A DNA stretch of 64,000 nt, from the NCBI GenBank assembly GCA_021029095.1, contig JAJOHG010000038.1, positions 186,001 to 250,000 on the forward strand, written 5' to 3'. The translations under genes were made by a program, and so were the position numbers. The notes beneath the pieces were generated by a model, which was not told the origin of the DNA, searched no databases, and was given only the letters and a program-made list of their open reading frames with translations. Within the stretch, counting starts at the first letter, position 1; each line of letters opens with the position of its first letter. Source of the stretch: Phellopilus nigrolimitatus (Eukaryota > Basidiomycota > Agaricomycetes > Hymenochaetales > Hymenochaetaceae). Below, piece by piece: positions 25,101-61,743 of the stretch.

Positions 25101-25731
25101 TCAGGTGAATTCCAGGTGAGTTATTCTTTTTTGCAAAAGCTCGAGGGTTTCTTCCTCATATTGAGAAAGTATATCAGAATGCTTCTGAAAAATAAGGACA
25201 GCTTTTCTGGCTATCTCCAGAGCCTTTCTATGCTGTCCAGTTACTTCGAAAACATCAGAGTATGTTTCAAGAGCCATCCCATAATCTGTATCATATTTTT
25301 GGAATTGCCTCTCCTTTAGAAGAGACTCAAAAAGTGCAACAGAGTCCTGAATATGGACAACAGCCTCTGTGTGTCTTCCCAGGCTTAAGAAGCTGCAAGA
25401 CAGGTTATTTAGAGAATTAGCAAGTTCAGGATTGAACCTGTCTGGGTCCTTCTGTGAAAGGGCCTGTCTGATGGTCACTTCTTTCTGGCTAGCCTCCAGT
25501 GCTTCCTTGTGTCTGTCCAGGTTTGACAAGTTGAAGGACAAGTTATGAAGAGAGACTGCAAGAACAGGATTAAATCTGTTTGGGTCCTTCTCTGAAAGAG
25601 CCTGTCTGATGGTGACTGCTTTCTGGATAACCTCCAGTGCCTCCTCATGCCTATCCAGTTTTGTCAAGTCAAGAGACATGTTATGAAGAGAGACAGCAAG
25701 ATCAGAATCATAGAGATTTCCATGACCTTCT
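25101..25731 (-). pseudogene. 3' part of the TPR-repeat host gene (C-terminal half)
   Basis: Encodes the C-terminal 208 residues of the gene whose 5' part is at 60592..61743. It contains TPR-type helical repeats of about 42 residues: LAVSLHNMSLDLTKLDRHEE, LAVSLHNLSFNLSNLDRHKE, LANSLNNLSCSFLSLGRHTE and a fourth, diverged MALETYSDVFEVTGQHRKA. Each is followed by a helix such as ALEVIQKAVTIRQAL. Such repeats mediate protein contacts. Stop at 25101. The frame is cut at the Copia insertion. The five bases 25727..25731 (CTTCT) are one copy of the target duplication. Removing the whole insert rejoins KLAE|GHGNLYDSDL in frame. As it stands this part has no start and no promoter. Confidence 0.9.
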
Positions 25732-26147
25732 TGTTGGAATTTCATTACTTAATTCTCTTTCCTTTCACATGATCGCTTTACTTTGCTTGCTTCGATAGTT
25801 CCATATGGTCATAGTACCGTTACCGTTCCTATCGCTCCACCATCTTTGCATCTTATTGTCTTTGCTCCATTTGGACCAATGTCCATTGTACAGTATATAT
25901 AGGACTCTATCCTGTAGGTGGACGCTTCAGACTTGTTCTCTGAAGCGTCCCTCGTGAGTGCATTGTATGCCTCCCTTTCTTTAGTATTTAGCTAACGCTC
26001 TGTACAGTGATCTTACGATCACTTAGGTATTTCTCTATCTATTAGACTTGTTCTCTGAAGCGTCCCTCTGATCTTACGATCACTTAGTCTCCGGTTGCTT
26101 GTAGCGTCCCTGCGCCGCCGCTCTCATATCTACTCGATATTCTAACA
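25732..26147 (+). repeat. Copia 5' LTR, 416 bp
   Basis: Runs from TGTTGG to TAACA, with a TATA-like CAGTATATATAGG near 25892 as a probable promoter. Inside, two words are each duplicated: GACTTGTTCTCTGAAGCGTC (near 25930 and 26046) and GATCTTACGATCACTTAG (near 26011 and 26069). The 3' LTR carries the same sequence but is split at 32485/60481. Confidence 0.93.
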
Positions 26148-26158
26148 GGTTATGAGCC
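26148..26158 (+). other. Copia primer binding site (half-tRNA type)
   Basis: GGTTATGAGCC directly follows the 5' LTR. It is the exact complement of GGCTCATAACC, which occurs in the anticodon stem-loop of initiator tRNA-Met. Copia and Ty5 prime from a tRNA-iMet cleaved in the anticodon loop, so the same mechanism is inferred here. Confidence 0.7.
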
Positions 26159-26497
26159 TTGCGCTGTAACTTTGTACTCGACTTCGCTCGCAACTGTTTT
26201 ATGCCCAAGCAGCTGCATATCTTCGCATCTGCTGCCGGATTTCACATCACCAACCCGTCTCTTCGTTCCTACACCTATCTTAGGCAACAAGGATACGACG
26301 TCCCTTCTCAGTGGATTGAGCCGCCTACTTTTGGAGATTTATTCCTGAGTACGCACCCTTTCGTCTTTGACAACTTGCTATTTTCTGGCACTCGCTCTCC
26401 ACGCCCCTGGCATTCGCCATCTCTTCCCTTCCAAGCTCCTTTCCAATTCGCCTCCACCTATCGCCAATTACCCGCATATCGCACTCGTCTCGCACCT

Positions 26498-28189
26498 ATG
26501 GCCGACTCCGTCTCTAAAGTCTTTTCCGACATCGAGAAGCTCGATGCCTCCGGCGCCAATTTCAAAATTTGGAACGCGCGCATCAAGCATGCTGCCATCG
26601 CCGTAGGAGGGCTCGATCGTCTCACGTCTGCTGGCACTAATGCTGACGAGCGCAAACTCGACGCGCAAATGCTTAGCGCTATCTGCGGTAAACTTCCCAA
26701 CTCCATCTTTATCAAGTATACAGAAGCATCTGCGACGCATACTGTGATGGCGGGATTGAAGGCTCAGTACGACATCGTTACGCCTGTTTCTGAGGCTGTC
26801 ACTGAGGCGAAACTCTGGAGCACCAAGTGCACCAACAATCGCAAGCTGGCTCAGCACCTCGACCAAATGATCAAAATTCGCGACTCGCTCCTTCATATGG
26901 GCAATACGTCTATCACCGACCGTATCTTCGTCAATGCTATCACTGCTTCCATCCCCGCCGAGTTCCAACATGTCGCTACCTCTGCTCAGAACATGCTCAG
27001 GGTACAGGATCTCGTGCAACCGCTTCCTGGTGGCGCCAACCGACAGGTTAGCCCTGAATCGCTCATCACTGAGCTTCGCGGCGCTGCCCAACAGTGGAAC
27101 CTTACGCATTCGGGTGGGAAGGATAAGGACAAAGCTAGCTCTGCGCAATCTTCTAAGCGCGGAGGACGAGGAGGTCGTGGACGTGGTCGCGGTGGTCGTG
27201 GGGGTAAAGGGAACTCTGATCGTTCTAAAGGCAAGTCTTCTGACAAGCCTGATGACGATGACGCTATCACCTGCTATAAATGCGGTGGTAAGGGACACAA
27301 ATCTCCGGCATGCCCGTCCAAGAAGAAGACGTATTCTAAGGACGAGGCTTCTACGTCGAGCGCGCAGCCTTCTGAAAAGAAGGAGGAGAAGAAGGAGAAG
27401 AAGGAGGATACTGCGCAAACCGCGCGTATTGAGGAGGCTTGGTTTACTGCTGGACCTGGCGCCTATGGCGTGCTGCCGCCGGAGATTGATTGCTCTGATT
27501 TAGCGGCGCAGGAAGACACTTATGCTGTCACCCAGGCCCATCCTGCCAATGTTTACGCTCACACTACGATTTTCGACTCTGGCGCCTCTAGCCATATGAC
27601 GCCGATTCGTGAGCGCCTCACCAACTTTACCTCCCTCACTTCGCACTCCATTCGCGCTGCTAACGACCAGCTTTTTAATGCTGAGGGCAAAGGGCATATG
27701 TCTGTGTCCATCCCCGACAAGTTCGGTGGAACGACTATACGCTTCCGCGACGTTTTGTTCGCACCTAGTATGCACGCGACCCTGATTTCTATTGGCAAGC
27801 TGAACGATGCTGGTTTTGCATGTACTTTCAAGAACGGTATGCTCATCATTCACAACCGCTCTAATGACGTTATCGCCCGCATTCCCAAACGCGAGGGACT
27901 CTATCGTCTCTTCCATGCAGATGAGGCTGGTGCTGTTGCGCCCGCTTCTCATTCTCTCTACGATATTCACTGCATGCTCGGGCACGTCAATTACGCTTAT
28001 TTGAAGTCCATGTTTCGCAACAACCGCATCTCTGGCATTGCGCTTGACCCGGCTCGCTCTGAGGAGATAGAGTGTATGCCATGTCTTAGAGCCAAAGCTC
28101 GCGCTGCCATCGTCAAAAAGGAGCGATCTTCCGCTCTCGCCAACAAGTTCGGCGATGTCCTGCACATCGATATCTGGGGTCCGGCGCGC
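26498..28189 (+). pseudogene. Copia gag, protease and N-terminal integrase
   Basis: Open frame (upstream frame from 26159; gag start chosen at MADSVSKVFSDIEKLDASG, 26498). Gag region with FKIWNARIKHA near the N-terminus, a Gly/Arg-rich basic stretch (GGRGGRGRGRGG), then a CCHC zinc knuckle, CYKCGGKGHKSPAC. The aspartic protease motif is FDSGASSHMT. The pre-integrase zinc region follows (HCMLGHVNY...CMPCLRAKAR), then HIDIWGPAR, the start of the integrase core. At 28189 the frame is cut by the insertion at 28190 and continues in phase at 29689. The whole polyprotein would be about 1389 residues. Confidence 0.93.
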
Positions 28190-29684
28190 TGTCGTGCCAA
28201 AGATGTAAATGAGAAAAACTTGGATTTTCTTTCACCTACACTTTTTTTGCCTGAGTCGGTCCGGACGTATCTTTGGTCAGAACTTTCCCAGTTGTCCGTT
28301 TTGCAAGGATTGTTTTGTTTTGTTTTGCAAGAGGTATTTTCCTTCCAAATCTTCAAGCTAGACAACTAATGTAGTGATGATAACTATGTCTTGAATAGAT
28401 CAAGCTATTGGTTCCAATCCAATACGCAAGATCCTGATGAACTAATAAATTCTTTGATGCTGCCTAGCTATTGGTTCCAATCCAATACACTAGACTTCTT
28501 GAACTTTTGAGTATCAGACCACAGAGGACTGAAGCTTGACTTGAGATAGCCCACACAGGACTATTTGACTTGACTTGAACTTGAGATAGCCCACACAGGA
28601 CTTATCTGACTTGACTTGAATGAACTTAAGATAGAAAAAAGAAAGAAAATTGTAGTTGGTACTGAGTTTTTCTGTGAGCTGAGTAGGTTTAAAAGATGGG
28701 TAGTAATTTCTTGTATTTCTAGGGCTCTCAGACTGGGCCCTTATATACTACTACAGAGATTTAAATTTAGCATATAGGTTTTTGAAATAAGTCTTCCTCA
28801 AGTTATTTATACTGCTCCTTTGCACCTTTCCTTCCTATTTTTGTCCCACTTTGCATGTTTCATCCTATTTCCGCTTCACTTTGCACCTTTCCTTCCTATT
28901 TTTGTCCCACTTTGCATGTTTCATTCTATTTTCGCTTCTACTTTGCATATTTCATCCTATTTTCGCTTCGCTTTTCATGTTTCATCCTAATTTCATCCCA
29001 CTTTGCATATTTCATCCTATTTTTCGCTTCACTTTTCATGTTTCATCCTATTTTTATTTCGCTTTCCTTGTAAGCTGTATCTCAAATTTGTTGTGCTGTG
29101 TTTGGTGTAACCAATCTTGAGATTGAATTCAGAGCTTCTTAGCAAAAAGTTCTTTGTTTTGGCTGAGAAGCATCTTGCGCGTCTTTGTGCTTTACTGCCA
29201 TCTGATCCCTACCATGCCCTGGTCCATGGCAAACATCCGTACAGCACTCTATGATCGTCTGTACCAGTTGATCGAAGAGTATTCTGAAGTGCAGGGTGAA
29301 AATGTTCATCCTGGAAGCATTGTGTATGACCCTTTTCTTGCCAGGCTGTCTGACGGCTTTTTTACTGATTAAGTTTGCCAGTATTTTGGTTGAGAAGTCC
29401 ATTGATGTGCGAATGGATCCACCTGACTTGATCGGTGAACAGCTTAGGTGCGTCTTTTTCTTTTTCTGTCTTCTTGGTTTTTGTTTAACATGCGTATTCC
29501 AGTCAGCGCCCACTTTCCGGCCATTGTGCTTCTGGTTCAATTAGTCACATGTAGAAATTGATCCTTTTATTTGTCTTTTGCTTCTTTATTTTGATGCCCG
29601 TCGCTGAATTCGGGAAGCGATAACTTTGTTCTGAGGCTTCTGTGAACTAGCCAGAATATGTCCAAATTGATTTGGCGCATGACA
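28190..29684. mobile_element. 1.5 kb TIR element (non-autonomous DNA transposon) inside Copia pol
   Basis: Imperfect terminal inverted repeats: left TGTCGTGCCAAAG, right end (reverse complement) TGTCATGCGCCAAAT. Flanked by GCGC on both sides (28186..28189 and 29685..29688), and removing it restores the integrase frame (GPAR|VKTIGRAV). No transposase frame is present. The interior has direct repeats: CTATTGGTTCCAATCCAATA at 28406 and 28467, GATAGCCCACACAGGACT at about 28542 and 28584, and a T-rich array of TTTGCAxxTTTCxTCCTATTT units at 28817..29060. Superfamily not determined. Confidence 0.8.
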
Positions 29685-32166
29685 GCGCGTCAAAACCATC
29701 GGCAGAGCTGTCTATACGCTCACTATGCTCGACGACGCTACGCGCTGGTTGGAAATGCCTCTTCTGAAGGCTAAGTCCGACGCATTTGCTACTTACGTCT
29801 CCTACGACGCTCGCCTCAAATTGCAGTCTGGTGTTTCTGTCAAGGTCCTTCACTCTGATCGTGGTTCCGAGTTTCTCTCGAAAGAATGGACTACGTACAC
29901 GGAAAGCCAAGGTACCGTGCGCAAACTTACTGTGCATGACACACCGGCGCATAATGGCGCAGTTGAACGTGCTCATGGCACTGCCTTTAATGGTGTTCGC
30001 TCTCTTCTTTCTGCCTCTGGCCTGCCGAAATGGCTTTGGGGCGAAGCACTCGCCCATGTGATCTTCATTTACAACAGAACTCCTCGCTCCGCGCTCAATG
30101 GCAAGTCGCCTTTTGAGGTACGTTATGGTACGCCCCCTAACATTTCTGGTTTACACCCATGGGGCACCATCGTCGTTGTCGCGGTGGATTCTGGTAACAA
30201 GTTGGAGGATCGCGGTGTTGAAGGTCGCTGGCTAGGCTTTGACGACACTTCCAACGGGCAACGTGTTTATTGGCCCAAGAAGAAGACAATTACCGTCGAG
30301 CGCAACATTGTTTTCACTTCGCAGGTTCAACCCGTTGAAGGGGAGCACGATATTGACATCGGTCCTATAGAGGACACTCCTGCCATTCCCAACGCCGTCG
30401 AACCCGCTTCCACTCCTGAAGAAATTTCTGAGCCGCGCGATCCTCTCATCCAGGACGGCAAACGCCAGAAGAAGGCTAGCCGCCGCGCTCTAGGTCTTGA
30501 GTACGATGAGGACGATGCAGCTAAAGACATCGCGCATTCTGTTGCTAATGTCACTTCCGAGGCGCTTGGATACGATCCCGCCACTATCGAGGAGGCTAGA
30601 CGACGCCCTGATGCTGCTGAGTGGGAAGCTGGAGTATGGGACGAGATTGGAATGCTGGAGAAACGCAAAACTTGGGAGTATGCGTATCTCCCACCTGGTC
30701 GCAAGTGCACTGGCAGTCGATATGTCTTTCGCACTAAGCTTAATGCTGATGGATCGATTGCCAAGCATAAGGTACGCTTTGTCGCACAGGGTTACTCACA
30801 AGTTGAAGGCGTCGACTATTACGACGATGACACCTTCGCTCCTGTCTGCCGACTCACCTCTGTGCGCACCATCCTCTCTATTGCAGCCATTAACGACTGG
30901 GAGATCAAACAGCTGGATGTCAAATCAGCTTATCTTTATGGCGAACTTGGTCCCGACGAGGAAATCTACATGAAACCTCCCCCTGGCATCACGCTCAAAG
31001 GCATTAAGCCTGGACAAGTTCTTCGCCTTCGCCGAGCAATCTATGGCCTTAAGCAATCTGGTCGTCGTTGGTATCAGCACCTGAAGCGCATCCTGGATTC
31101 GCTGGAGATGGTACGCTGCAACTTTGATCACGCTGTTTTCTTTCGCCGCCACCCTGCTGGTGGATTCTCGCTCATCTTCTTTCACGTCGACGACATGACC
31201 CTCGCTGCCACTTCCACGTCGCTTATGCACACAATGAAGTCCAAAATCGCTGACAAGGTCGAAGTCACTGACGCCGGCCCCATCAGCTGGCTTCTTGGCA
31301 TTGAAATCCGTCGCGACCGTGACCGTCACATCATTTCTCTTTCGCAGCAATCGTACATCAACGCGATTCTTATTCGCTATGGTTTTGAGAATGTCAAACC
31401 TCTCACCACGCCCATGGATCCGCATCTAACGCTTTCCAAGGACCAATGCGCGACGACCGCCGAAGAAATCGCCGAAATGGCGAACCGCCCTTACAATCAG
31501 GCTCTTGGAGCTCTACGATACGCCGCTGACTGCACCTGCCCCGACATCTCTTATCCACTCGGTCAGCTGGCACGCTATATGAAGAACCCCGGTAAGGCTC
31601 ACTGGACTGCTCTTAAGCACGTCTATCAGTACCTCGCCGGTAGGAAGGATTATTGGTTGAATCTGGGAGGATCAGACGAGGACAAAGGAGGATTGGTAGG
31701 ATTTTCAGACGCTGATGGCATGAGCACTGAAGGACGTCAACCGAATCTTGGGTACGTCTTCATGATTAACAACGGTGCTATTTCATGGTCTTCCAAGCGC
31801 GAACCCACCGTCTCGCTTTCCACTATGGAGGCGGAATATTATGCTCTTACGCATGCCTCGAAGGAAGCCGTCTGGGTGCGTAACTTGGTTAACGAACTTT
31901 TCGATTTCGCGAAACACCCTCTCCCTCTCAACTGCGACAACCAATCTGCTATCGCCTCTGCCAAGGACGACAAGCATCATAATCGCACCAAACACATCGA
32001 CATTCGCTATCACTTTATTCGCCAACGCATTGAAGATGGTACTATCTCGCTCGTCTACTGCCCTACGGAGGATATGACGGCGGATATCATGACGAAAGCT
32101 CTTCCATCTGTGAAGGTCAAGCACTTCGCTTCGTGTATGGGGCTCGCCCCACTCGCAAAGGCTTGA
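29685..32166 (+). pseudogene. Copia integrase core, reverse transcriptase and RNase H
   Basis: Continuation of the Copia polyprotein, in frame from 29689. Integrase core: TMLDDATRW, HSDRGSEF and AHNGAVERAHGT (DDE residues). The reverse transcriptase includes KHKVRFVAQGYSQ, LDVKSAYLYGEL, AIYGLKQSGRRW and the catalytic FHVDDMTLA (copia-type VDD). RNase H includes FSDADGMS, SLSTMEAEYYALT, CDNQSAI and HHNRTKHIDIRYH. Stop at 32164..32166, immediately followed by the polypurine tract GAAGGGGAG and the 3' LTR. Intact as a fragment, but it has no start of its own. Confidence 0.95.
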
Positions 32167-32173
32167 AGGGGAG

Positions 32174-32485
32174 TGTTGGAATTTCATTACTTAATTCTCT
32201 TTCCTTTCACATGATCGCTTTACTTTGCTTGCTTCGATAGTTCCATATGGTCATAGTACCGTTACCGTTCCTATCGCTCCACCATCTTTGCATCTTATTG
32301 TCTTTGCTCCATTTGGACCAATGTCCATTGTACAGTATATATAGGACTCTATCCTGTAGGTGGACGCTTCAGACTTGTTCTCTGAAGCGTCCCTCGTGAG
32401 TGCATTGTATGCCTCCCTTTCTTTAGTATTTAGCTAACGCTCTGTACAGTGATCTTACGATCACTTAGGTATTTCTCTATCTATT
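32174..32485 (+). repeat. Copia 3' LTR, first 312 bp
   Basis: Same sequence as the 5' LTR from TGTTGGAATTTC to CTCTATCTATT, where the KDZ element begins. The last seven bases (32479..32485, ATCTATT) are one copy of the KDZ target duplication. Confidence 0.95.
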
Positions 32486-33235
32486 CACTTCAGGCACCCC
32501 CTTACCAAGGACCTATTAGGTAGGACCGACCCATATGAGGGTTCCTTCTAATAGGTCCTGCTTGGTTATGTGAGTCCCATGGCAGTTGGGCATGCCCATA
32601 TGCCTGGGCATGCCCAACTGTGGGGATCTCAGGGTGTATTTCAGGGTCTTTGGGAATGCCCATCCTTGGGAAATCCCATAACTTGTCACTGGCTGTCAGG
32701 GGGCCCTGGTATGGGATTTCCCAGATAGTTGGACCTAATTATATAAATATTGTCCCTGTTGCACGCATTGTATCTAGCATTGTATTGGTGTGCTATAGTG
32801 TCTGCTTAACGGCTGAGCCACTGTTTGAGCTGGTCTGGGCTATACCGGGTTTGGTTTAAACAGGATTGGGTGCAGATTGGTTTGGGTCAGCAAGTACATT
32901 GATATCTCTGGTCCTTTTGGACCACAATGCTGTTGTTGGCTGCCCAAAGCCAATCAGGAGGCCTCACTAAACCATTTGATTGGTTGTAGGGACGGGCCGT
33001 GTGTACAAAGGGCAGGGACGTAATCGATTGGTTGTAGGGACAGGTTATGTGTACAAAGGGCAGGGACGTAATCGATTGGTTGTAGGGACAGGTTATGTGT
33101 ACAAAGGGCAGGGACGTAATCAACGCGAACTGAGGGCTCACTAGCCTTTCAATTGGTGGTAATGACAAGCCCTGTGTACAAGGACACCCATCCTCGGGCA
33201 TGCCCAAGTGTGGGCGTCCCCAAGGATGGGCATGC
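32486..33235 (+). repeat. Left terminal inverted repeat of the KDZ element
   Basis: The outer about 630 bp match the reverse complement of the right end essentially base for base. Inside this are tandem copies of a unit of about 48 bp (CGATTGGTTGTAGGGACAGG... to GGGACGTAAT; near 32975, 33029 and 33077), and then a shared segment ending in CCCATCCTCGGGCATGCCC. An 80-codon frame at 32620..32859 is repeated exactly at the other end and is part of the repeat, not a gene. Confidence 0.92.
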
Positions 33236-33440
33236 CCAAATGCGGACATGCGCACATTGGGCATGCCCAACGTCCTTGGGCATGCCCAAATGTGAGCATG
33301 TCCAAATGTGGACATGCGCACTTCTTGGGCGTGCCCAAGGATGGGCACGCCCAAAAGTGTGGGCATCCCCAAGGATGGGCATGCCCAAGGATAGGTGTCC
33401 CCAAGAATGGGCATGCCCAAGCATGGGCATGTGCGAGCTG
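33180..33440. repeat. Left subterminal array of GGGCATGCCC palindromes
   Basis: Dense palindromes of the form TTGGGCATGCCCAA and variants GGGCGTGCCC, GGGCACGCCC, GGGCGTCCCC and GGACATGCGCAC, spaced by ATCC, ATG or AGG linkers. They resemble multiple transposase binding sites near the ends of a large DNA transposon. All frames through the array are open because of the repeat (for example 33141..33461) and are not genes. Confidence 0.85.
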
Positions 33441-33753
33441 AGGGTTCACTAAGCTATTCAATTGGTTATTAGAAATTCACACAGGTATTTCTTATGGCAA
33501 AGCAACAGCACGGAGTGATCACACAGATCAGGCTTCAGAGGACTTGTCATTCTGTACAGTGCTAGCTGCCCTCATATATCAGAGCTACATGATCAATATA
33601 AGAGATGTCACAATAATGATATGATACAGTACTGAGCAAGCAACATGAGTAAGACAGACAAAACATTACTAAATGACCATGAGAGACCATAAGTGACCAT
33701 GATGAGTAATACATATTGGTAGTAGTGACTGGCAGTGTGTACAAGGATGCCCC

Positions 33754-34380
33754 TGGATGTATGACTGAGAACACAGGATGACTACAGTGCTCAAGCGACA
33801 TACCATATGGGGAGGATACACAAACCACCTGCATGGCGGTCAATTAGGATATGATGACCTGCAAAAAGGTGTACTCCTGAACATCGTACTGATAAAAGGA
33901 GCCTTAAGGAAGGAATAAACTTTATAAGTGTTTGAGATAATTGCCGTGAATTTTGCAGTTCTGCCTCCAACTAAGTGTCGAACTATTCTTCCAATACATG
34001 TTGAGTCCGGGCAAGGGGAAGAAGGTGAGATGTCATGTGGATGTGCTCTTGCCGATCCATTGGTTTATTGCCAATGTCGAGACACAAGAGCACATCCAAA
34101 TGACGGCTCATCATCTTCTCCTTGCCCGTATTCAACATGTGTTGTAAGAATAACTCAACATTTAATTGGAGGTAGAACTGCAAAACTTATGGCAACTGTT
34201 TTAATAATATAAAGTTCATTCCTTCCTTAAGGCTCTTTCCACCACTACGATGTTGAGGAGTATATTTTGCTGCAGGCCATGGTATCCTAATTGTCCCCCA
34301 TGCAGTTGGTCTGCATATCCCCTCCATATGGTATGTCGCTTGAGCACCGTAGTCATACCGCATTCTCAGTCATACATCCA
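33754..34380. repeat. 627 bp imperfect foldback
   Basis: The left half, from TGGATGTATGACTGAGAA, matches the reverse complement of the right half ending TTCTCAGTCATACATCCA along its whole length, with scattered mismatches. Inner landmarks are GAGCCTTAAGGAAGGAAT (33899) against its complement at about 34232, and GGATGTGCTCTTG around the centre near 34067. The 94-codon plus frame and the minus frames inside mirror each other and are not genes. Probably a foldback MITE or an old inverted duplication inside the KDZ element. Confidence 0.85.
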
Positions 34381-34561
34381 GAAATAAATAAAAAAATTGT
34401 ATCATGCCAGTAAAATGATGCAGACTCCAACTCCATACTGCACCTCAAGTATTTCAGCATCGAGCAGCACCATACCCTGTATTTATGCATACCAGAACAC
34501 TCAGCAGCACAATTACACACTGAGACCTCCTCCAACTCATCTTTAGTATTCTTTGATTGAC

Positions 34562-34815: not shown

Positions 34816-34965
34816 GCTTCATTCGTCCTTGTGCATGCCCACGAACAAAATAGATAGCAAGATAGAAAACGATCGGACTATTAGCAAGGCTGCTTACTAA
34901 TCTACTCAATACCCTGCCACATTCACCAAAACCCGAACACTACGAAGACCTTGACACTAAACTAC

Positions 34966-37396: not shown

Positions 37397-37436
<40 letters not shown>

Positions 37437-50450: not shown

Positions 50451-50513
50451 ACGTGACTGAGAGGTCGCAAGTTCAAGACAAGGTAAAGGTAAAATAAAGT
50501 ACGTGTCATAACA
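50451..50513 (-). repeat. Gypsy 5' LTR, outer piece
   Basis: Begins with the second ACGT target copy (50451..50454), continues GACTGAGAGGTCGC and ends GTCATAACA at 50513, followed by the GCGAA target duplication of the Gypsy element. Confidence 0.95.
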
Positions 50514-52568
50514 GCGAAGAGCCACATGCCACGGCCAGAAAAATCTTGGAGAAAAGGAGAAGAATCATGAATAAAATGGAACACGTTCGCCGTTGCCAGA
50601 TGATGCGTACCTGAAGGAGGTGGGAGAACCGTTATCGTGCCGTCGGCCGCCGAATCACGAGCTGCCGTCATGTCCAACTCGCCGACCACCCACGCTGCCG
50701 CTTCCCCGTCAATAGGGAGCTCGCTGCTCTCAGGCGGCGGAGTCGATGAACGCGTAGCGCCGGACGGTCCGGGTAGCGAGGGTCCGGGTAGCGAGGGTTC
50801 GGGTAGTGCGCGAAATTTCTCGGCGTACCGCTCTCGCTCAGTTTCGGTGAGAGGAAACTTTCCGTCCAGACACACGATCGCCTTCCTGTAATTTAAGTAA
50901 AAAAGGGTTCAATAAGCAGAAGTAAATAGAACTTACACCGCGATCAAGTTTTTCCAATCGACGACGAACTCGGAGGATCCGAGTACGCCATCGCGCGAAA
51001 TGCGCGCGATTCTCTTCGTCGGGTGGGTATCCAGAACGTAGCCGTAAGAGCCCTTTGAATATTTGTCTTGTTTGACATAGATTCGCAGGCCGCGGTAGTT
51101 GTCGTGGTGTCGAGGAGGACCCTCTATTGACGCGAATGGTTGAATGTTTTCCATCCTAAAGTCGGGGTCATACGTCTCGACCCATTTGGTACGACAAGTC
51201 ACCTGAATCATAGCAGTTAGATTAGAAACAGTAGTTTTGTAATTCGAACGAACCGTACGACGAGTTTCAACCTCGAGGAAGCTAAGTTCGTCGTCGTTGA
51301 CCATCGTTATCATTCCTTCGACCGGTGGCTCGACGAATTTCATTCTGACGTGGTCTCCGAGGTTCAGAATGCGTCGCACTTCATCGTGAGGAACCCATAA
51401 CGTGTTAAATTTCACTGTTCCAGCCCAGTCGAGGACGTCGCGAACGAGAACTCGTTCGTCCTCGATAGTACTGACGACGCCTCTCAGAAGGGCCAGAGAT
51501 CCAGAAATCATGCGGACTTTATCTCCGCAACGCAAGAACGGTTCACCTATTTCTAGCGAGGCGAGATTACTTTCTCGCAATGCAAATGCACCTATATCGC
51601 AGAACGTAGGATTTGCTTTCTTCACGAAGTGAAGCGCCGGGACTTTGAACTCGCATAGTCCGTTTCTAAACAACCGACGTCTGAAACGGAACTTGGTATC
51701 GGAGAGTGTTTTAATCTTTTCGCCCTCACATAGCTCAGAAATTTTTTCTAAATTAAAAAGTAAAGGCGGGGGGCGAGACGTTTGTTTCTTATCTCTCGTT
51801 CCAATGCGAGGCACGACAGCCACAGTAACTGAGTCGCTCGTATCTGAGACGGTGCGAACTCTCGCGAGGTCACCTTTATACGTGCCTCGTCGAAGAGTAA
51901 CCCAGTCGTCGACCTTGTAATGAGGTAGCGGGTCGTTTTTATCTCGAAGTTTGAGCACTTGATGGTGCTCCTCGTATGGAACTGAGAGGAATGGCGCTCG
52001 CTCCAGTCCAGCGAGATTCTGACACGCATCGCGAATGATTGCTGAGTTCGGCGCTAAGACATAAACCCGCGAGTGCAAAGACGAGACGGAAAATGCACGA
52101 GACGGTTCCAACAGACGCTCATTGAGACGGTCCGCATTCGACGGCTCCAGTTTTTCCTATTAAACTTGTGTAAATACTCTGAGCAAATTCCCGAGCCACA
52201 ACGTACCGGAACGTGGATCATCCACATATGCAATTGAGTTGAAAGCCGACTCCTTTCCACTTCCCTCTCTCTTCTGCTGCGCTCTTTGATTCTCCTTGCC
52301 GTTGTCTCATTGTCAAAGTCTTCGACCGAACGAGCGCCCGTGCCCCGTGTAGACGAAGCGTAGACGCGCGAAGGCGTCTCATCTCTGACATCGTCGTCGT
52401 CGATGAAGTCATTTGCTAGATAGTTCAATATTAGCTTTCTGCATTTTAGCTTTACAAAGCAGTGTCACCTTCCTCTTCGTCTTCCGAAGTTTCTTCGTCG
52501 TCGTCCGCGACAGTGGCTTCGACGTCTAACAGCGCCTCGACGCCACTGACTCGCGTTCGTTTCGACAT
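50514..52568 (-). pseudogene. Spt5-like (acidic, NGN-like, KOW) KDZ passenger gene, 5' part
   Basis: Exons: 52568..52469, 52415..52207, 52156..50937 (probably with a further 51 bp in-frame intron near 51200), 50885..50611 and 50544..50514. The Gypsy insertion then splits the last exon. All phases agree, and the joined gene would be about 735-750 residues. The N-terminus is acidic (DDDEETSEDEEE, NDFIDDDDVRDE) followed by a basic helix (RRIKERSRREREVERSR), as in Spt5. HMWMIHV and RVYVLAPNSAIIRDACQNL fit an NGN-like domain, and HYKVDDWVTLRRGTYKGDLARV is a KOW motif, with further barrels (CGDKVRMISGSLALLRGVV, GDHVRMKFVEPPVEGMI). Spt5 is an RNA polymerase II elongation factor; whether this copy acts so is unknown. 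It ends at the 50518..50514 target copy. Confidence 0.85.
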
Positions 52569-52986
52569 CTATATTTCTTGTTAGCAACAAAACTATCTCG
52601 TATTACCCAGGCCTCCTCGTCTTGAAAGCACTTACCTCGGTCTTTTGTTTCTTTCTGCTAATCTACAGAAAGGCCGCTTTACTCTTTTTTTACGCTCTTT
52701 TGAATACAATGGTTTTTGCGAGTTGGTTCAATTAACTATCAGTCTAGCAGTATGCGGACAATAGTACACGATAGAGAGGAAAGGATAGCAGGATGAGAGC
52801 AAAACGAAAACAGCAAAGCAAATACGAAAGCAAAGCAAAACGAAAACAGCAAAGCAAATACGAAAGCAATACGACAAATGAGATCCTCAACGACAAAAAA
52901 AAGACCCCCAGACCACGAGGAACAGGAACACGAAGTAAAAAAGGAAAGAAACGAAGGAAAGGGAAGCGAGTCCTCTACAGCGTGTA
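52569..52986. other. Upstream region of the Spt5-like gene
   Basis: 418 bp containing the presumed promoter of the minus-strand Spt5-like gene and an A-rich stretch at 52797..52870 with repeated GCAAAGCAAATACGAAAGCA words. No gene recognised. Confidence 0.5.
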
Positions 52987-53094
52987 GTGTCACTCCGGCG
53001 TAGAGGGAGGACGGCGAGCGCGTGGAGGAGTCGGCGAGCGCGTGGAGGAGGGACGGCGAGCGTGCAGAGACGAGACGGCGAGCGCACGGAGATG

Positions 53095-53830
53095 GCGTGG
53101 CGGGGGCGTCGAGGAGTTGACGAACGTGCGGAGGAGATGGCTAGGCGTGTGCGTGGACGAGTTGGCGAACGCGCGGAGGAGATGGCTAGGCGTGTGCGTG
53201 GACGAGTTGGCGAACGCGCGGAGGAGATGGCTAGGCGTGTGCGTGGACGAGTTGGCGAACGCGCGGAGGAGATGGCTAGGCGTGTGCGTGGACGAGTTGG
53301 CGAACGCGCGGAGGAGATGGCTAGGCGTGTGCGTGGACGAGTTGACGTAGGCGCGGAGGAGAGGGCTAGGCGTGTGCGTGGAGGAGTTGGCGAACGCGCG
53401 GAGGAGAGGGCTAGGCGTGTGCGTGGACGAGTTGGCGAACGCGCGGAGGAGAGGGCTAGGCGTGTGCGTGGACGAGTTGGCGAACGCGCGGAGGAGAGGG
53501 CTAGGCGTGTGCGTGGACGAGTTGGCGAACGCACGGAGGAGACGGCTAGGCGGGTGCGTGGACGAGTTGGCGCGCGCGCGGAGGAGGGGGGACAGTGAGC
53601 GCATGGAGGAAGATGGTGAGCGCGTGGTAGAAGACGGTGAGCGCGTGGAGGGAGACGGTGTAGACATGGAGGGAGACGGTGAGCGCGTGGAGGGAGATGG
53701 TGTAGACATGGAGGGAGACGGTGAGCGCGTGGAGGGAGACGGTGAGCGCGTGGAGGGAGACGGTGTAGACATGGAGGGAGACGGTGAGCGCGTGGAGGGA
53801 GACGGTGTAGACATGGAGACGGTGGGAGAG
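53095..53830. repeat. Two minisatellites of 45 bp and about 42 bp units
   Basis: From 53095 to 53585 there are about ten copies of a 45 bp unit (GTTGGCGAACGCGCGGAGGA, then GATGGCTAGGCGTGTGCGTG plus GACGA). From 53600 to 53820 a second array uses GGTGAGCGCGTGGAGGGAGA and GGTGTAGACATGGAGGGAGA. Both strands hold long open frames (353 codons minus, 203 plus) as a by-product. Whether any is translated cannot be told. Confidence 0.9.
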
Positions 53831-53931
53831 GAGAAGGCGAGCGCGCTGAGGGAGATGACGAACTCACTATGGAAGAGGGAGGAGCTCGCTGTGAAAGACG
53901 ATGAGCTCGCTGTGGAAGACGATCCCGCTGC

Positions 53932-54167
53932 GGAGATGGTGGTGGTTCGAAGAAGAGATGGAAAGGTTGTCCAAAAGCGGAATCGGACCTTGATGACTAG
54001 CAATCCAGATTCGGAAAGATCAGCTGACTTCCAGATCACGTGTGGGGACAAACAGACCTGCGCTCGGGAAGTCAGCTGATCTTTCCGAATCTGGATTGCT
54101 AGTCATCAAGGTCCGATTCCGCTTTCGGACAACCTTTCCATCTCTTCTTCGAACCACCACCATCTCC
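53932..54167. repeat. Nearly perfect inverted repeat, 101 bp arms, 34 bp spacer
   Basis: Left arm 53932..54032 begins GGAGATGGTGGTGGTTCG and ends AGCTGACTTCC; right arm 54067..54167 is its reverse complement with about one mismatch (CCAAAAG against CCGAAAG). The spacer is AGATCACGTGTGG... to CTGCGCTC. It sits at the boundary of two minisatellite domains and could form a long hairpin in DNA or RNA. Confidence 0.93.
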
Positions 54168-54179
54168 AGCTTCTTTACA

Positions 54180-54775
54180 GCGAGCTCACCGTCTTCCTCG
54201 GCGAGCTCACCGTCTTCCTCATCGTGCTCGCCGTCTTCCCCATCGCCTTCGCCGTCTTCCTCAACGCCCTCGCCGTTTCCCTCAGCGCCCTCGCCGGCTC
54301 CCTCAGCGCACTTGCCGCCTTCCTCAGCGCCCCCGCCGCCTTCCTTAACGCACTCGCCGTCTTCCTCAACGCACTCGCCGCCTTCCTCAACGCACTCGCC
54401 GCCTTCCTCAGCGCGCGCATTCTCTTCCTCAGCACGCACACTGCCTCTCTCAGCGTGCCCCCCCTCTCCCTCAGCGCCCTCGCCGTTTCCCTCAGCGCCC
54501 TTACCGTCTCCCTCAGCGCCCTTATTGTCTCCTTCAGCGTCCCCGCCGCCTTTCTCAATGCCCTCGCCGTCTTACTCAACGCCCTCGCCGTCTTCCTCAG
54601 CATCCTCGACGCCCCCGCTTTTTTTTTCGGCGCCGTCGCCGCCTCGCTCAGCGCTCTCGCCTCCTTCAGCGCGCACTCCGTCTCCCTCAACGCTCGCCCC
54701 CTTTTCGTCTGCGTGCTCGCCGTCTCCCTTAGCGCCCTTGTCGTCTGCCTCAGCGCCCTCTACCATGCTTGCCGT
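54180..54775. repeat. 21 bp-type minisatellite (CTCGCCGTCTTCCTCAACGC)
   Basis: Units of about 21 bp such as CTCGCCG(C/T)CTTCCTCAACGC and variants. In one plus frame they encode Leu/Ala-rich heptads (ALAVFLNALAAFLN) and in one minus frame basic heptads (ALRETARALRKT). Composition resembles the mirror of the array on the other side of the inverted repeat. Not scored as a gene. Confidence 0.85.
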
Positions 54776-54781
54776 CGTTAA

Positions 54782-55351
54782 CTTATCTGCGCGTACGAAG
54801 CATCCTTTCATGTGAGTCGCGGTCTTTTTTCTCTCTTTCTTGCAATTGTATTCATGTGCCCTTTTACCAGGTCTCGCTGCCTGCATCTCTGGGGGCTTTC
54901 ACTGTCGGGTCTATCTGGAATGTATATGAGGTATGTGGTTCTTTGTTCGTATAAATTGTTTATTAGTCCTAAATATCTTGCAAGTTGGGTCTGACCTGGC
55001 CAGCCCGCGCACTCCTTTTTTTCCGTTGTGTTCGTTCATGAGGCCTTTTACCGTAGAATAGTTCAAGTACATTCTAGACAAATGAGGGTGAAAAAATGCA
55101 AGGGAAAAAAGAAAGAAAAAAACGTGCACAGTAAGAGCCGAAGGCTTTGAAGCTCGCGGGAGCGCGTGGCTTGCGGTAACTAAGAAACGTGTGTCATCAA
55201 TTGAGTAAGAGAAGTTTGGTGCGTCGGTTAGGCATCACTAGCACAGTTTACCAGCCGCGCTCGGAATAGCCGGGTTCTGCTTGAGTTTAGGTGCGCAGAT
55301 TTTTTTTCTTCTTGATTGAGCGCTCCCATTTCTTACATCTCTTTCTCGAGC
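54782..55351 (+). other. Upstream region of the KDZ transposase
   Basis: 570 bp between the minisatellite and the transposase ATG. A pyrimidine-rich stretch (TTTTTTTTCTTCTTGATTG, near 55300) lies shortly before the ATG at 55352. No gene or clear TATA box seen. Confidence 0.45.
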
Positions 55352-58300
55352 ATGAAGTTTGGTCGTAGGAAACTCAAAAGGCTGCATGCCGAGGCTGCAA
55401 AGGACAAGCCCAATGGTCTTATCGAAGGGCCGTCAACATCACAGTTTATCGCTAGCTCTCCAAAAAAAATATTTCCACCTCCTTTAGTTTTTCTTCACGG
55501 AAATAGGACACTTGTTGAAATTCCAGGGGCTCGATCAGCACGACCTCCTAAGAATCCAGCCGAGTCTGCGGTTGCAGCTGCAGCCTCAGCCACCGACGAC
55601 AATCCTTTTATTGTACCAAATGACACTAAACACAAGACCTATATAGGCGGCGTGCCGTTGTTCATATCATCGCGGCAATTTCCTCTTGACCCCGCAATCT
55701 CGAGACATAGGCGGAAAAGGATCAGACAATGCGAGAGGTGGAAAGAGGTGCTTCCTTCTCTCATTGACCCTTTCCTGGACGTTCTTCGTCGATCCGAGTC
55801 GTTGCGCAATCCTGTCCCACCGCCCGAGTTGTCAAGCTGCAGTTGTGCCAGTGAACGGAAAACCATACATGTTGTCTGTGTTTATTTCCAAAGTGAGTCC
55901 TCGCTCTGTTTATATATATATTTATATATATTTGATCTTCAGTGTTGTATACATCATTCAGCTCTCAGTATCGTCTCTATCGAAATATGTTCATGTCGTA
56001 GTGCTCCTCTTCAACTACTCGAACGTGGTCTTTTCGGGTGCGCGCCATGCCTACCTACGCTCGCGGTCGACTTGAATCTGCTAGATTTCTGTGCGGAGCT
56101 CTTCCTGCGTACTCCGCCGAATCAAACTGCGTTTTGCAATACTTTAGAACATTTTTTGAAAGCTCGTGGTTACGCGATGGAATCAAATGTGAGTACTGCA
56201 CATAACTTTAACTGCTTTTGCTAAGCTTTATTCTCCTGCAGGATTCTCTTCGAAAACGATTCAGCAAGTCTTTACAGTGGTTTTGCGCTCTGCGAGATGC
56301 GGCGCGGAACCATGTTGATGATTTTATAGTATCATCGTCGACCTGTCATACCGCAGACAACCGCAAACGAAGGGGGCACGTCATGAACATGGGTGACGGG
56401 TCGCTTCATTCCGTTGAGCGGGATAACTCTCCTTCTGAGGCTGGTTCTAGTCGGATGGAGAGTGAGGAACCTGGTCCCGAACCCGAATCGACTCCAGAAA
56501 GCCACCATCGGCCTTCTCCATACCTGCAAAGTCGATGTCCCCTTTGTTTCGGAGGAAGATCGTGGGCACACGATCCTAATTCAATGTAAGCTAACATTTA
56601 CGTCCATCATACTATCTGGTCATCTAACGTAGCGCTTTCGATTCCGCAGAATTGATATTGCAGTCTGCCTCGACGCCTGCTTCCAGCAAAAGCGAGGACA
56701 AACTGATAGCGGACCTCCTTATCGTCATCCGAATTCTGTTTTCTTGGATGAGAGGGTAGTTAAAGCGATGGAGGAGGAGGTCGAGACGCTCAGGCCCATG
56801 CGTAATAGGAGCGCTCGTAATGCTGGTTCGGTTGATGCCGCTCGCGCAAAGTCGCGTCCGCTGAAAGTCTCAAACGAGACTTTGGACGAATGCGAGGCCT
56901 CGTATAAAGCGGCAGATGAACGCCGTCAAAAAGCAAGTACACGGTTCTTCTCTGATACAGGTCTCATGGCTCTTCTTTGCCGCCACGATCGTGTGCTTTG
57001 GCTTGCCAACATGCAGTCCGCGGGTGAAAAGCAATATTACGCGCTTGCCTTGCTGCGCGCTCTTTTTGATAACTTACCCAACGACGCGGTAGTCGGAGTG
57101 CTTTACGATGTAGGATGTCAGCTGCACCGAAGCATTGTGAAGTGGGATTTCCTTCCAGAATTAGCAGAAAGAATGGTTTTCGCGCTCGCTGTTTTCCATG
57201 CGTTTGGCCATCAATGGGCTTGTCAACTCGTATACCACCCTCGAAAATGCGCGGGCTTTGGTCTTACAGATGGTGAAGGATGCGAGCGCTTTTGGAGCTC
57301 TATAAAACATCTGATTTCTACCTTGCGGATAAGCGGCGTGCGTAGTACCTCTCGAGCATCTTCAACCAGCTGACATTCATTCATCAGTTTTACCAACGAC
57401 TTAACCTGATCGACGCGCAAGTGCAATTCCTCAGTAACAGCAATCTTTTTAAACTTGGAGCATGGTTATTCAACCGCACTCGGCAATGCTACGAACGACT
57501 TCACGCCGCTGAGAAGGAAATGGTGAAGTGCTCTATTCCAGAAGGCGAGCTCGCGCTGGAATGGGAGAACCAAGTGGACGAGCAATGCAAAGCTTTACCA
57601 CGTAAGTAGGTTTTTTGTAATCAGCTGCGAAATTAAGTAATCTTTATGAACAGGTCAGTCGAAGTCTGCAGCACGTAATGCGGTAGAAGCAATTTGTAGT
57701 CTGCGTTCTCGGAGCAACACTGTCCTTCAGCGCATCCGCATCCTTCAACGGAATATGGTGAATGAAGATTTTAATGCCAATGAAAATCAGAAAGCAATCA
57801 GAGAGCTGGAGGCTGCGTACACGCGCCTCATCAAGGAACTGACTACAAAGGAGCGTGCTCTCGGCGCCGGAGACAAATTCAAGCTCGAGTCGCTCAAAGA
57901 CAGTACTTTTGTCAATGACCGCATGAATGCTCGTGCGGTCAAGTCTCGTCTACGATCGAAGCTTCAAAACCGCAAATTCGAGCTTCAGTGCAATGAGCGG
58001 CCCTACAGCACTCAAAAGTCGTCTTCCAGTGGTCAGATTCCTTTATTTTCCTTATCTGCGTGTTTACGCTTAACTGTCTACTTTCCGCTAGATCGTAAGA
58101 AATCAGAACTTATCGAGACGCAAGTGAAGCGCCGTGACCCAGGCATTGTCCAGTTGACAAAAAAGTACAATGCGCTCTGTGATTCTCTGCGTAGATTGGC
58201 TAGGGAAGGAAGAGCACCACGAGGCGCGAAATGTCCGGAACCTCTCACCATCAAAGGTCTATTCGACATGGATATTGATGATGCAATTTGGCAAGATGTT

Positions 58301-59018
58301 GGGCTTTATGATGATGATGATGGTGACATTCCTCGGTGGTTAAGTGACGAGAACGTTAGGAAAGGCATCAAGGCTCTTCTCGAAGTTAGGCGCTGTCGCG
58401 AGGAGCTGCAGCGACTAGCTAAAGAGAGATTTGCGATGCAGGACTGGTTCGCAGAGACTTGGTCGCAAACCTCGAAAGCGTTTGAGTCGTCTTGTGAGTT
58501 AATCTGATTTTAATACCGCAGGACTTTACTAACCATTGCTCTCTCACTTCACAGTCCCGATGTCTGGTTTGCGTTATGCCATTGACAGGCGAAGACAAGA
58601 GCTCCTTTCTCTCCATGATGAATGGCGTCGTAGGGTACAAACCATTCCATTCGCGAGTACCCTCCCTGAAACATGGGGGCCGACCAATGAAGACCTCGCA
58701 AGCTTTCATCGGCTTGAATCAGTTGCTCAGTGTTTTCCTCTTAGCTCTTTAACAGGAATTCAGACAGACTCGGATTCTGATAATGATTCCAGCCGAGATA
58801 TTGAAGAAGATGGCGAGTTTTTGGAACTGGCAGAGGCTATTGAATCTGATAATAATGTGCACGCTGTTCCCATTGACGAGCTGGACTTCCAAAATTATGT
58901 AGATGAGACGCCTCTCCCACCTGATGACGATATAGATAGTCCTTCTTGTGACTCTCCTTCTCCGAAGAAAAGGGCTCGCATCGGTCATGTAATCTATTCT
59001 TTAAGTAATCACACTTAA
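55352..59018 (+). CDS. KDZ transposase, intact, eight exons
   Basis: DNA transposase of the Kyakuja-Dileera-Zisupton superfamily, expected to cut and paste the surrounding element. Exons: 55352..55892, 55962..56188, 56242..56585, 56650..57337, 57388..57601, 57654..58031, 58092..58493 and 58555..59018. All phases agree and sum to 1086 codons including stop. The N-terminal region has a CxC zinc cluster (SCSCAS...EICSCRSAPLQLLERGLFGC). Catalytic-region motifs follow: VCLDACFQQKR (first Asp), FFSDTGLMALLCRHDR, VGVLYDVGCQLHRS (second Asp), FHAFGHQWACQLVYHPRKC and LTDGEGCERFWSS (Glu). The C-terminal region has DIDDAIWQDVGLY, WLSDENVRKGIKALLEVRRC and an acidic tail (DSDSDNDSSRDIEEDGE). Start at MKFGRRK. 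No stop or frameshift was seen, so it may be functional. The assignment rests on motif layout. Confidence 0.93.
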
Positions 59019-59107
59019 TTAATATCATTTCATATAATATTCCTTTATTAAAATACTTTCTAAGTTGTGAAAATTTGCATTCAGCCAACTCCTCTTTAGT
59101 ATCATTT

Positions 59108-59680
59108 GTTTGGCTAGGATGCCCATCCTTGGGCGTGCCCATCATTGGGGACGCCCATCCTTGGGGATGCCCAATATTTTGGGCGTGCCCATCCTTGGGC
59201 ATGCCCAATATTTTGGGCGTGCCCATCATTGGGGACGCCCATCCTTGGGGACGCCCATCCTTGGGCATGCCCAATATTTTGGGCGTGCCCATCATTGGGG
59301 ACGCCCATCCTTGGGGACGCCCATCCTTGGGCATGCCCATCCTTGGGCATGCCCAATATTTTGGGCGTGCCCATCATTGGGGACGCCCATCCTTGGGGAC
59401 GCCCACGCTTGGGCATGCCCAATATTTTGGGCGTGCCCATCATTGGGCATGCCCAATATTTTGGGCGTGCCCATCATTGGGGACGCCCATCCTTGGGGAC
59501 GCCCACGCTTGGGCATGCCCAATATTTTGGGCGTGCCCATCATTGGGAGCGCCCATCCTTGGGGACGCCCAAATGTGCGCATGTCCAAATGTGGACATGC
59601 GCACATTTGGGCACATTTGGGCATGCCCATCATCCTTGGGGACGCCCACACTTGGGCATGCCCGAGGATGGGTGTCCTTG
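59108..59680. repeat. Right subterminal array of GGGCATGCCC palindromes
   Basis: About thirty palindromic cores (GGGCGTGCCC, GGGCATGCCC, GGGGACGCCC) joined by ATCC, ATCATT or AATATTTT linkers, mirroring the array at the left end. A unit of about 66 bp containing CCCAATATTTTGGGCGTG recurs. Frames such as 59145..59894 are repeat artefacts. Confidence 0.9.
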
Positions 59681-60480
59681 TACACAGGGCTTGTCATTAC
59701 CACCAATTGAAAGGCTAGTGAGCCCTCAGTTCGCGTTGATTATGTCCCTGCCCTTTGTACACATAACCCGTCCCTACAACCAATTGAATGGTTTAGTGAG
59801 CCCTCAGTTCGCGTTGATTATGTCCCTGCCCTTTGTACACATAACCTGTCCCTACAACCAATTGAATGGTTTAGTGAGCCTCAGTTCGCGTTGATTACGT
59901 CCCTGCCCTTTGTACACATAACCTGTCCCTACAACCAATCGATTACGTCCCTGCCCTTTGTACACACGGCCCGTCCCTACAACCAATCAAATGGTTTAGT
60001 GAGGCCTCCTGATTGGCTTTGGGCAGCCAACAACAGCATTGTGGTCCAAAAGGACCAGAGATATCAATGTACTTGCTGACCCAAACCAATCTGCACCCAA
60101 TCCTGTTTAAACCAAACCCGGTATAGCCCAGACCAGCTCAAACAGTGGCTCAGCCGTTAAGCAGACACTATAGCACACCAATACAATGCTAGATACAATG
60201 CGTGCAACAGGGACAATATTTATATAATTAGGTCCAACTATCTGGGAAATCCCATACCAGGGCCCCCTGACAGCCAGTGACAAGTTATGGGATTTCCCAA
60301 GGATGGGCATTCCCAAAGACCCTGAAATACACCCTGAGATCCCCACAGTTGGGCATGCCCAGGCATATGGGCATGCCCAACTGCCATGGGACTCACATAA
60401 CCAAGCAGGACCTATTAGAAGGAACCCTCATATGGGTCGGTCCTACCTAATAGGTCCTTGGTAAGGGGGTGCCTGAAGTG
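59625..60480 (-). repeat. Right terminal inverted repeat of the KDZ element
   Basis: Reverse complement of the left terminus. About 100 bp longer because the tandem section here has a different arrangement, with units containing AACGCGAACTGAGGGCTCAC and CAATTGGTTGTAGGGAC instead of only the CGATTGG form. It ends CCCCCTTACC-type sequence (inverted) then GCCTGAAGTG at 60480. Confidence 0.92.
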
Positions 60481-60591
60481 ATCTATTAGACTTGTTCTCT
60501 GAAGCGTCCCTCTGATCTTACGATCACTTAGTCTCCGGTTGCTTGTAGCGTCCCTGCGCCGCCGCTCTCATATCTACTCGATATTCTAACA
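60481..60591 (+). repeat. Copia 3' LTR, last part
   Basis: Begins with the second ATCTATT (60481..60487) and continues AGACTTGTTCTC to ATTCTAACA. 312 bp plus 104 bp (after removing one ATCTATT) equals 416 bp, the exact length of the 5' LTR. Confidence 0.95.
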
Positions 60592-61743
60592 CTTCTGCTA
60601 ACTTCTGAATGACATCAGTGTTTAGCCTGTTAAGCTGCAATGATTCATTGTGAAGTCCTATATCATGTAAGACAAGTGCAAGTGTAAGGGCTCTATAAAA
60701 CCATGCAATAGTAGGCATCTCTGAAGTATGATCATCAAATATTCGAAGAAGGGAAATGACTTCAATCAGAGCATCCTCTGTCTTTCTCTTGGGGTTGGAG
60801 TAATCAGGCTTGTGGTAAAGGTAGTCTGGAGTGTAATACTGTGGAAGAGCAGTTCTATCTGGGGAGAATATAACTGGCTCTTTTCCCAAAGCCTGTTCCA
60901 GTGCTTTGATTTTGAGAGACAATGCCCAGGCATCAGCATCTTTGCTGGCAGCAGCTACATCCTAAATCCAAAAGATTGTCTAAGCAGATATGCAATTCAT
61001 ACTGAACAGGAAGTTTACAAGAGAAGCTTTCTTCAAAGACTTCTTCTTCGCCGTCGTGTCCATCTCATCAATGCCGAGAAGTCTGTCAGCTTGCGCCGGA
61101 TCTCTCTGAGCTGCTTGGATAAGAATTGTCAAATCCTGGGCCAAAGCTATCGCCCCAGACAGGATCTCAGGAGAACTTGCACTAGTTTGAGCAACGATCT
61201 GTACGTTAGTCCTCACCTGAAAAAGCACAGTCAGCAATAGGCTGAGTCGATCTGAGAAACAATCTACCATGAATCCAAGCTTAGCCTCAGCAATTTCGTT
61301 TCTCAGTTCCTTTATTTCATCTTTGATTTTAGTAGCAGTGAGCAGAGCTAAGCCTTTACGAATGGGATTCTTGCTCTGCTGCTGGACCAAAAGTTTCTGG
61401 GATCGATCGAGAAGGTTTTCGAGACCACTGGAAGGATTCAGCATCCAGCAGTGAATGATGTGTGGGTTAACATACCTCTTCAACAGCGACATATTGTGAT
61501 CCAAGCCAGGAAGATTGTCGCTGACATGACCCTTTCGAAGGCCTTCGAGATCTTCGATCTCATTGAGAAGTTTAGCAGAAAGCCGATACAATGCTGTCTG
61601 ATTCTCTCGACACTGAAACCATGACAATCATATTTTAAGCACTTTCTGTTAGGATAAACTAATATGCGACGTACCTCTTCGAGAGCTTCCTTTATCTTCC
61701 ATGCACGCTCGACGAGGTCAGGAATGCCTGTTGCAAAATCCAT
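60592..61743 (-). pseudogene. 5' part of the TPR-repeat host gene (helical N-terminal domain)
   Basis: Start MDFATGIPDLVERAWKIKEA at 61743. Exons 61743..61675, 61612..61019 and 60961..60592, with introns of 62 and 57 bp in phase 0. The N-terminal 220 residues are almost all helix (ENQTALYRLSAKLLNEIEDL, then IRKGLALLTATKIKDEIKEL). They resemble the MLKL/HeLo-like helical bundles at the start of many agaricomycete NLR-type proteins; this is an inference. No NTPase domain is present. The last exon reads TALPQYYTPDYLYHKPD, MPTIAWFYRALTLALVLHD and DVIQKLAE, where the Copia element interrupts. Joined to 25726..25101 the gene is 1659 nt (552 residues) in one frame. It is broken here; a truncated N-terminal product may still be made. 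Confidence 0.88.

Follow-up and report, generated by a model that had tools for sequence, protein, structure and literature searches.

Five transposable-element insertions at four levels of nesting in a TPR gene copy of the fungus Phellopilus nigrolimitatus

In the wood-decay fungus Phellopilus nigrolimitatus (Hymenochaetales), one copy of a TPR gene contains five nested insertions of transposable elements, four levels deep. They lie in a window of 64,000 nucleotides (contig C312:186001-250000); the assembly searched for related copies comprises 56.4 Mb in 635 contigs. A Ty1/copia element (Copia) interrupts the gene. Inside it are a 1,495-bp element in pol and a KDZ DNA transposon in the 3' long terminal repeat (LTR); a Ty3/gypsy element (Gypsy) lies inside KDZ, and a further LTR element, here called the inner element, lies inside Gypsy. 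The structure is real. We consider it very probable that it results from a recent, stepwise pile-up of ordinary transpositions at this gene copy.

The evidence begins at the junctions. Tested letter by letter, all five target duplications are exact: CTTCT for Copia, GCGC for the element in pol, ATCTATT for KDZ, GCGAA for Gypsy and ACGT for the inner element. The chance of a single 4-5 bp duplication is 0.1-0.4%, that of the 7-bp one 6e-5, and we reject a chance origin. Moreover, for every level of the nest the assembly also contains a natural empty site.

At the outermost level, Copia with all its nested inserts spans 34,860 bp on the plus strand (25732..60591), between CTTCT copies at 25727-25731 and 60592-60596. 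On contig C249 the same host locus (L087) lacks the stack, carries a single CTTCT and leaves the gene uninterrupted. Its match to the window breaks off at 25731 and resumes at 60592, with an overlap of exactly the five bases CTTCT; over the flanks of the insertion, 7 of 2236 positions differ. At the second level, a Copia copy on C236 has the GCGC site without an insert, with one frame open across the 251 bases read. The KDZ site is uninterrupted in both full-length Copia LTRs found elsewhere, on C236 and C45, a count that excludes three uninformative partial matches. At the third level, the flanks of Gypsy adjoin, overlapping by 3-5 bases, in all five other copies of the SPT5-like gene that it interrupts (C555, C13, C168, C567 and C434); the copy on C555 was read across the site and has one open frame. 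At the fourth, 38 other Gypsy LTRs of 41 span positions 1-396 as one match, among the best 40 of 97 candidates scored.

The two interrupted LTRs can be reassembled as well. The Copia 3' LTR is split into its first 312 bp (32174..32485, plus strand) and its last 104 bp (60488..60591, plus strand), which add up, letter for letter, to the intact 416-bp 5' LTR (25732..26147, plus strand). Likewise, the 337-bp piece of the Gypsy 5' LTR (46156..46492, minus strand) and the remaining 59 bp (50455-50513) equal the intact 396-bp 3' LTR (40044..40439, minus strand). A preliminary description, made from the window alone, had proposed the five insertions, both sums and the rejoining in phase of three split frames, those of the TPR gene, the Copia polyprotein and the last exon of the Spt5-like gene. 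The insertions and both sums are confirmed, and the natural copies on C249, C236 and C555 have open frames over the parts read.

The same description regarded each insertion as datable by its target duplication, a use that we reject: a duplication proves insertion, not age. It also called for a comparison of the LTR pairs. There are 0 differences in all three (Copia, 416 bp; Gypsy, 396 bp; inner element, 727 bp), which yields only upper bounds on age, with pair divergence at 95% below ~0.7%, ~0.8% and ~0.4%, respectively. LTR ages therefore cannot rank the events, and a ranking on that basis is rejected too. Two orders are nonetheless strict. Reverse transcription would copy an insert in one LTR to both LTRs, or lose it. 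Because the inserts lie in one LTR only, Copia precedes KDZ, and Gypsy precedes the inner element. The element in Copia pol likely arrived after Copia; with respect to KDZ, Gypsy and the inner element it is unordered. The relative chronology thus stands for these two pairs, and "unusually complete", as it had been called, is too strong.

The course of events that we favour is the following. A Ty1/copia element entered exon 3 of the TPR gene, as the empty copy shows. A second LTR retrotransposon entered Copia pol, as shown by the empty site, and would later have recombined to a solo LTR, as its relatives suggest. A large KDZ entered the Copia 3' LTR, as the empty LTRs show. The SPT5-like passenger gene of this KDZ is the site of a Gypsy of chromovirus type, as the empty KDZ copies show, and in the Gypsy 5' LTR sits an LTR element without recognised genes, from a family with a preference for CG-centred 4-bp targets. 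Beyond the steps from Copia to KDZ and from Gypsy to the inner element, this is an order of nesting only.

Nesting depth may indeed differ from time order. KDZ moves as DNA and would take its inserts along, as cut-and-paste transposons do. Gypsy may therefore have joined KDZ at an earlier address, possibly with the inner element already in place, and ridden with it into the Copia LTR. We regard this as a serious possibility, though not as the probable course. Another KDZ, on C555 (304757-334694), does carry 12,055 bases of its own, between its matches to window positions 53252 and 53378. Against a joint arrival, Gypsy occurs in none of the five other passenger-gene copies, though their histories may differ, and the identical LTR pairs are undecisive. 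The C555 KDZ is a twin of the one in the window, with the same 588-bp termini. At the left end, apart from a gap of 222 bp and one at the edge, 4 of 1,866 aligned positions differ; at the right end 26 of 1,837 differ, mostly near gaps. This divergence says recent only, and the arrival of KDZ is not ranked by its twin.

The interrupted host gene is read on the minus strand and was mapped from the C249 copy. Exon 1 (61675..61743, 69 nt, start codon at 61743) and exon 2 (61019..61612, 594 nt) are followed by exon 3, of which 365 nt precede the insertion (60597..60961, then one CTTCT copy) and 631 nt, including one CTTCT, follow it (25101..25731, stop codon at 25101-25103). The introns have the ends GTACGT..TTTCAG and GTAAAC..ATTTAG. 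Spliced on C249, exons of 69, 594 and 996 nt form an open frame of 1659 nt with the stop, encoding 552 aa. Pfam finds TPR_10 and TPR_12 in the post-insertion piece of exon 3, and no match for the pre-insertion piece nor for most of exon 2. In a protein search the best match, named as from P. nigrolimitatus, spans the full protein at 65% identity. After codon 344 of 552, the host frame of the window copy continues into the Copia LTR, where it reaches a stop at 366 residues. The predicted product of the filled allele would thus have 366 residues, 22 of them from the Copia LTR, and would not include the TPR-matching part.

Since C249 carries the intact gene, the 34,860-bp stack most likely sits on one allele of a dikaryon. 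Judged by identity and collinearity, C249 would most likely be the second nuclear haplotype, with the other nucleus keeping an intact allele. The comparison covered C249:1-4952 and 17265-21463 of 29,314 bases. C249:1-4952 is 99% identical to window 19989-24944, C249:17265-18059 pairs with window 24937-25731, and C249:19223-21463 corresponds to window 61760-64000 at a listed 100%. It is improbable that C249 is a recent segmental duplicate instead, a reading for which the presence of family copies on C616 and C57 could be cited; full-length members of this gene family are 77-79% identical, in contrast to 99.6-99.7% in the C249 flanks and 100% over 61760-64000. Allele or duplicate, C249 is a valid empty site.

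C249 has an insertion of its own, ~12.3 kb long and ~790 bp from the Copia site, between two GATCG copies; relative to the window it lies at 24937..24944. With the ends TGTAGCTTGG...TTCCAACA, it looks like another LTR retrotransposon.

The 1,495-bp element in Copia pol (28190..29684, TG..CA ends, minus strand as inferred from its relatives) is flanked by GCGC at 28186-28189 and 29685-29688. The preliminary description had it as a terminal inverted repeat (TIR) element, akin to miniature inverted-repeat transposable elements (MITEs), and this identification did not survive. Two relatives on C609 (69925-71434 and 77370-78883) lie in the same orientation, are identical over 1,523 bp, start 7.4 kb apart and are jointly flanked by ACGC. 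Aligned with these, the window element shows 10 differences in 1,492 positions and a further 34 gap positions. Read by eye on the minus strand, the interior between the pair opens with AAATTGGTACCCACGG, which includes a TGG as a plausible primer-binding site. Next to this, beside one LTR, comes a gag-like open reading frame (ORF) with a CCHC knuckle, and a purine-rich GTTGGGGGTGGA ends the interior beside the other LTR. The window insert is a single LTR with the same duplication on both sides and no interior. Because its relatives are the paired, directly repeated LTRs of a retrotransposon, we conclude that the element is a solo LTR, which would imply one retrotransposon insertion into Copia pol plus one LTR-LTR recombination there. 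The loosely inverted ends (TGTCGTGCC.. / ..GGCGCATGACA) and the 4-bp duplication had spoken for a TIR element; such ends are common to TG..CA LTRs anyway, and with the direct-repeat pair, its joint ACGC flank, the primer-binding-like TGG, the gag-like ORF and the purine tract on C609, that identity is very hard to sustain.

An assembly artefact, in which the assembler joined unrelated repeats, is scarcely credible. Repeat families do account for all five inserts, and the two LTRs of each pair are the same; yet at each of the five nested junctions the duplication is exact and an empty site is known from elsewhere, which a mis-join would not produce.

Several points weigh against the interpretation given so far, or against parts of it. 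On the assembled sequence, a mis-join or a collapsed repeat inside the stack is formally possible, and the allelic status assigned to C249 comes from 99-100% identity and collinearity over the parts compared, not from phasing. For three ORFs from loci of the solo-LTR family, Pfam gives no gag or retrotransposon match, only weak rows below the cut-off. A complete Copia was not seen elsewhere: C45 holds a 5' part and C236 a 3' part. CAGAG flanks both outer edges of these parts, which are therefore probably the halves of one copy. Finally, the KDZ on C578 has no target duplication, and that of the Gypsy on C45 matches in 4 of 5 letters.

The coding content agrees with the class of each element. 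In Copia, Pfam recognises Pol_BBD, Retrotran_gag_2 and a weak gag_pre-integrs in the upstream gag-pol piece (26231..28189, plus strand; stretch searched, 26231-28369), and the integrase core, SH3 and RVT_2 in the downstream piece of pol (29725..32166, plus strand). The gag is thus of copia type and integrase lies upstream of RVT_2, in pieces searched apart and with rve just below the cut-off; the LTRs have TG..CA ends and the target duplication is 5 bp.

KDZ measures 27,995 bp with its inserts (32486..60480, plus strand) and is flanked by ATCTATT at 32479-32485 and 60481-60487. Its termini, CACTTCAGGC..GCCTGAAGTG, form perfect inverted repeats of 588 bp. Between them lies a KDZ transposase exon (56744..57373, plus strand; PF18758, E 4.4e-53), as well as an ORF (55316..56224, plus strand) with a weak-to-moderate match to KDZ-associated cysteine clusters, CxC1 being above and CxC2 below the cut-off. 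None of the nine KDZ ORFs scanned matches TET/JBP. The duplication is 7 bp long in eight of the nine terminus pairs, window included and unpaired termini left out. Just inside both termini (32958-33430 and 59119-59880) lie arrays of GGGCATGCCC-type units of 16 bp, together with longer repeats; these are possibly transposase binding sites.

The passenger gene of KDZ is read on the minus strand. Its main exon (50936..52111) contains KOW domains according to Pfam, and the protein matches solved SPT5 chains (E 1.4e-13). Gypsy severs part of the last exon (39621..40043; exon structure inferred, open copy on C555, L088), and beyond the cut the gene sequence resumes at 50514. The gene occurs at six places in the genome, window included. 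Four of them (window, C555, C13 and C168) are between paired KDZ termini; those on C567 and C434 are near KDZ-like DNA without a listed surrounding terminus pair. An SPT5-like (KOW) gene thus appears, from sequence, to be a recurring cargo of KDZ elements. A protein search (E<=1e-3) returned one match, the fungus's own protein; since solved SPT5 chains do match, this search cannot gauge the spread of the gene and is uninformative in that respect. In the open-licence literature we found no paper linking a KDZ transposase with Spt5. By analogy with TET/JBP in Kyakuja, the KOW protein might be a regular cargo of large KDZ elements, adjusting transcription elongation or silencing to the benefit of its element, and Gypsy would then have disabled the gene in one recently mobile copy; we consider this rather doubtful.

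Gypsy spans 10,470 bp with the inner element (40044..50513, minus strand), between GCGAA copies at 40039-40043 and 50514-50518. Its domains follow the chromovirus order of Ty3/gypsy elements: RVT_1, RT_RNaseH, Integrase_H2C2, rve and a C-terminal Chromo domain (E 4.1e-16). Among its sister copies, 7 of 8 other pairs have a 5-bp duplication. Pol is in two frames, with the change inside RNase H (42420-42478), and for this reason the pol of this copy is probably broken despite its identical LTRs.

The inner element is 3,958 bp long (46493..50450) and is placed on the minus strand from its TG end and purine tract; ACGT flanks it at 46489-46492 and 50451-50454. Its two LTRs (46493-47219 and 49724-50450) are identical, and the interior (47220-49723) is largely made of tandem repeats of ~33 bp. 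Among the four ORFs scanned, of nine with at least 100 aa, no recognised protein was found, and one weak match fell below the cut-off. The element is a candidate non-autonomous LTR element (TRIM/LARD-like), and LTR pairs of the same family, which occur elsewhere ~11 kb apart, may be its autonomous partners.

Both this family and that of the solo LTR duplicate four bases centred on CG. From the 40 matches to the inner LTR we compared 11 insertions: that in the window, those of nine further LTR pairs and that of an unpaired LTR. Their duplications comprise five of GCGC, two each of GCGG and ACGG (the C224 pair, with ACGG on both sides, included), one of CCGC and the window's ACGT, so that 11 of 11 are CG-centred; the insertions on C112 and C231 have a right flank in common and are maybe not independent. 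As CG makes up 6.9% of the dinucleotides in the window, this amounts to a strong target preference. In the solo-LTR family, all five duplications, GCGC (window), ACGC (C609), GCGT (C179), GCGC (C605) and GCGC (C625), are likewise centred on CG. For these five, both outer edges were available; C112, C55, C123, C616 and C625:644464, with one edge or none, were left out.

Two further repeats lie in the window outside the stack. The first, of 795 bp with TG..CA ends (24172-24966), has relatives at nine other places, 82-98% identical, and looks like an older solo LTR; upon inspection of its edges no clear duplication was seen. The second is a 563-bp direct repeat, 88% identical (6370-6931 and 8260-8822), which overlaps two similar ORFs and is perhaps a tandem gene duplication.

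In titles and abstract openings of the open-licence literature on nested insertions, KDZ/Kyakuja, the species, CG targeting and Hymenochaetales, this locus was not found reported. A nested pile as such is an ordinary, common kind of structure, well documented here. With a natural empty site for every level in a single assembly, the locus offers a clear worked example of the loss of one gene copy beneath layers of insertions, next to a second copy that is still intact. It likewise illustrates where timing by nesting reaches its limits when a DNA transposon forms one of the layers. The CG-centred 4-bp targets of two LTR families and the SPT5-like cargo of KDZ are more open matters than the nesting itself.

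The individual layers resemble known systems. According to a study of Kyakuja (PMC12730594), these elements make 7-bp duplications, against 8 bp for Zisupton, and share with our transposon the KDZ transposase domain, the CxC-type cysteine cluster and the CA..TG ends. Two Kyakuja families of Laccaria are described there without inverted termini, unlike the 588-bp inverted repeats found here, and the SPT5-like cargo sets our element apart from them as well. Because of this difference in the ends, the window transposon, a KDZ by its domains, would be Kyakuja-like only. For the target preference, ZAM, an LTR retroelement of Drosophila, offers a precedent in its CG-rich target choice (CGCGCg; PMC2527525). 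In the fungal families, unlike in ZAM, what stays constant at the target sites is a CG dinucleotide in the middle of a 4-bp duplication. The solo LTR is of the usual kind, with one LTR and one duplication after LTR-LTR recombination, and differs only by lying inside a retrotransposon. Finally, the stack agrees with the nested LTR clusters of plants, as outlined in a study of 12 plant genomes (PMC6911290), in that younger elements lie inside older ones; LTRs are not commonly targeted by nested insertions there. Unlike those nests, the one in P. nigrolimitatus includes a large DNA transposon as a level, has two of its inserts in LTRs and coexists, in the same assembly, with an uninterrupted host gene.

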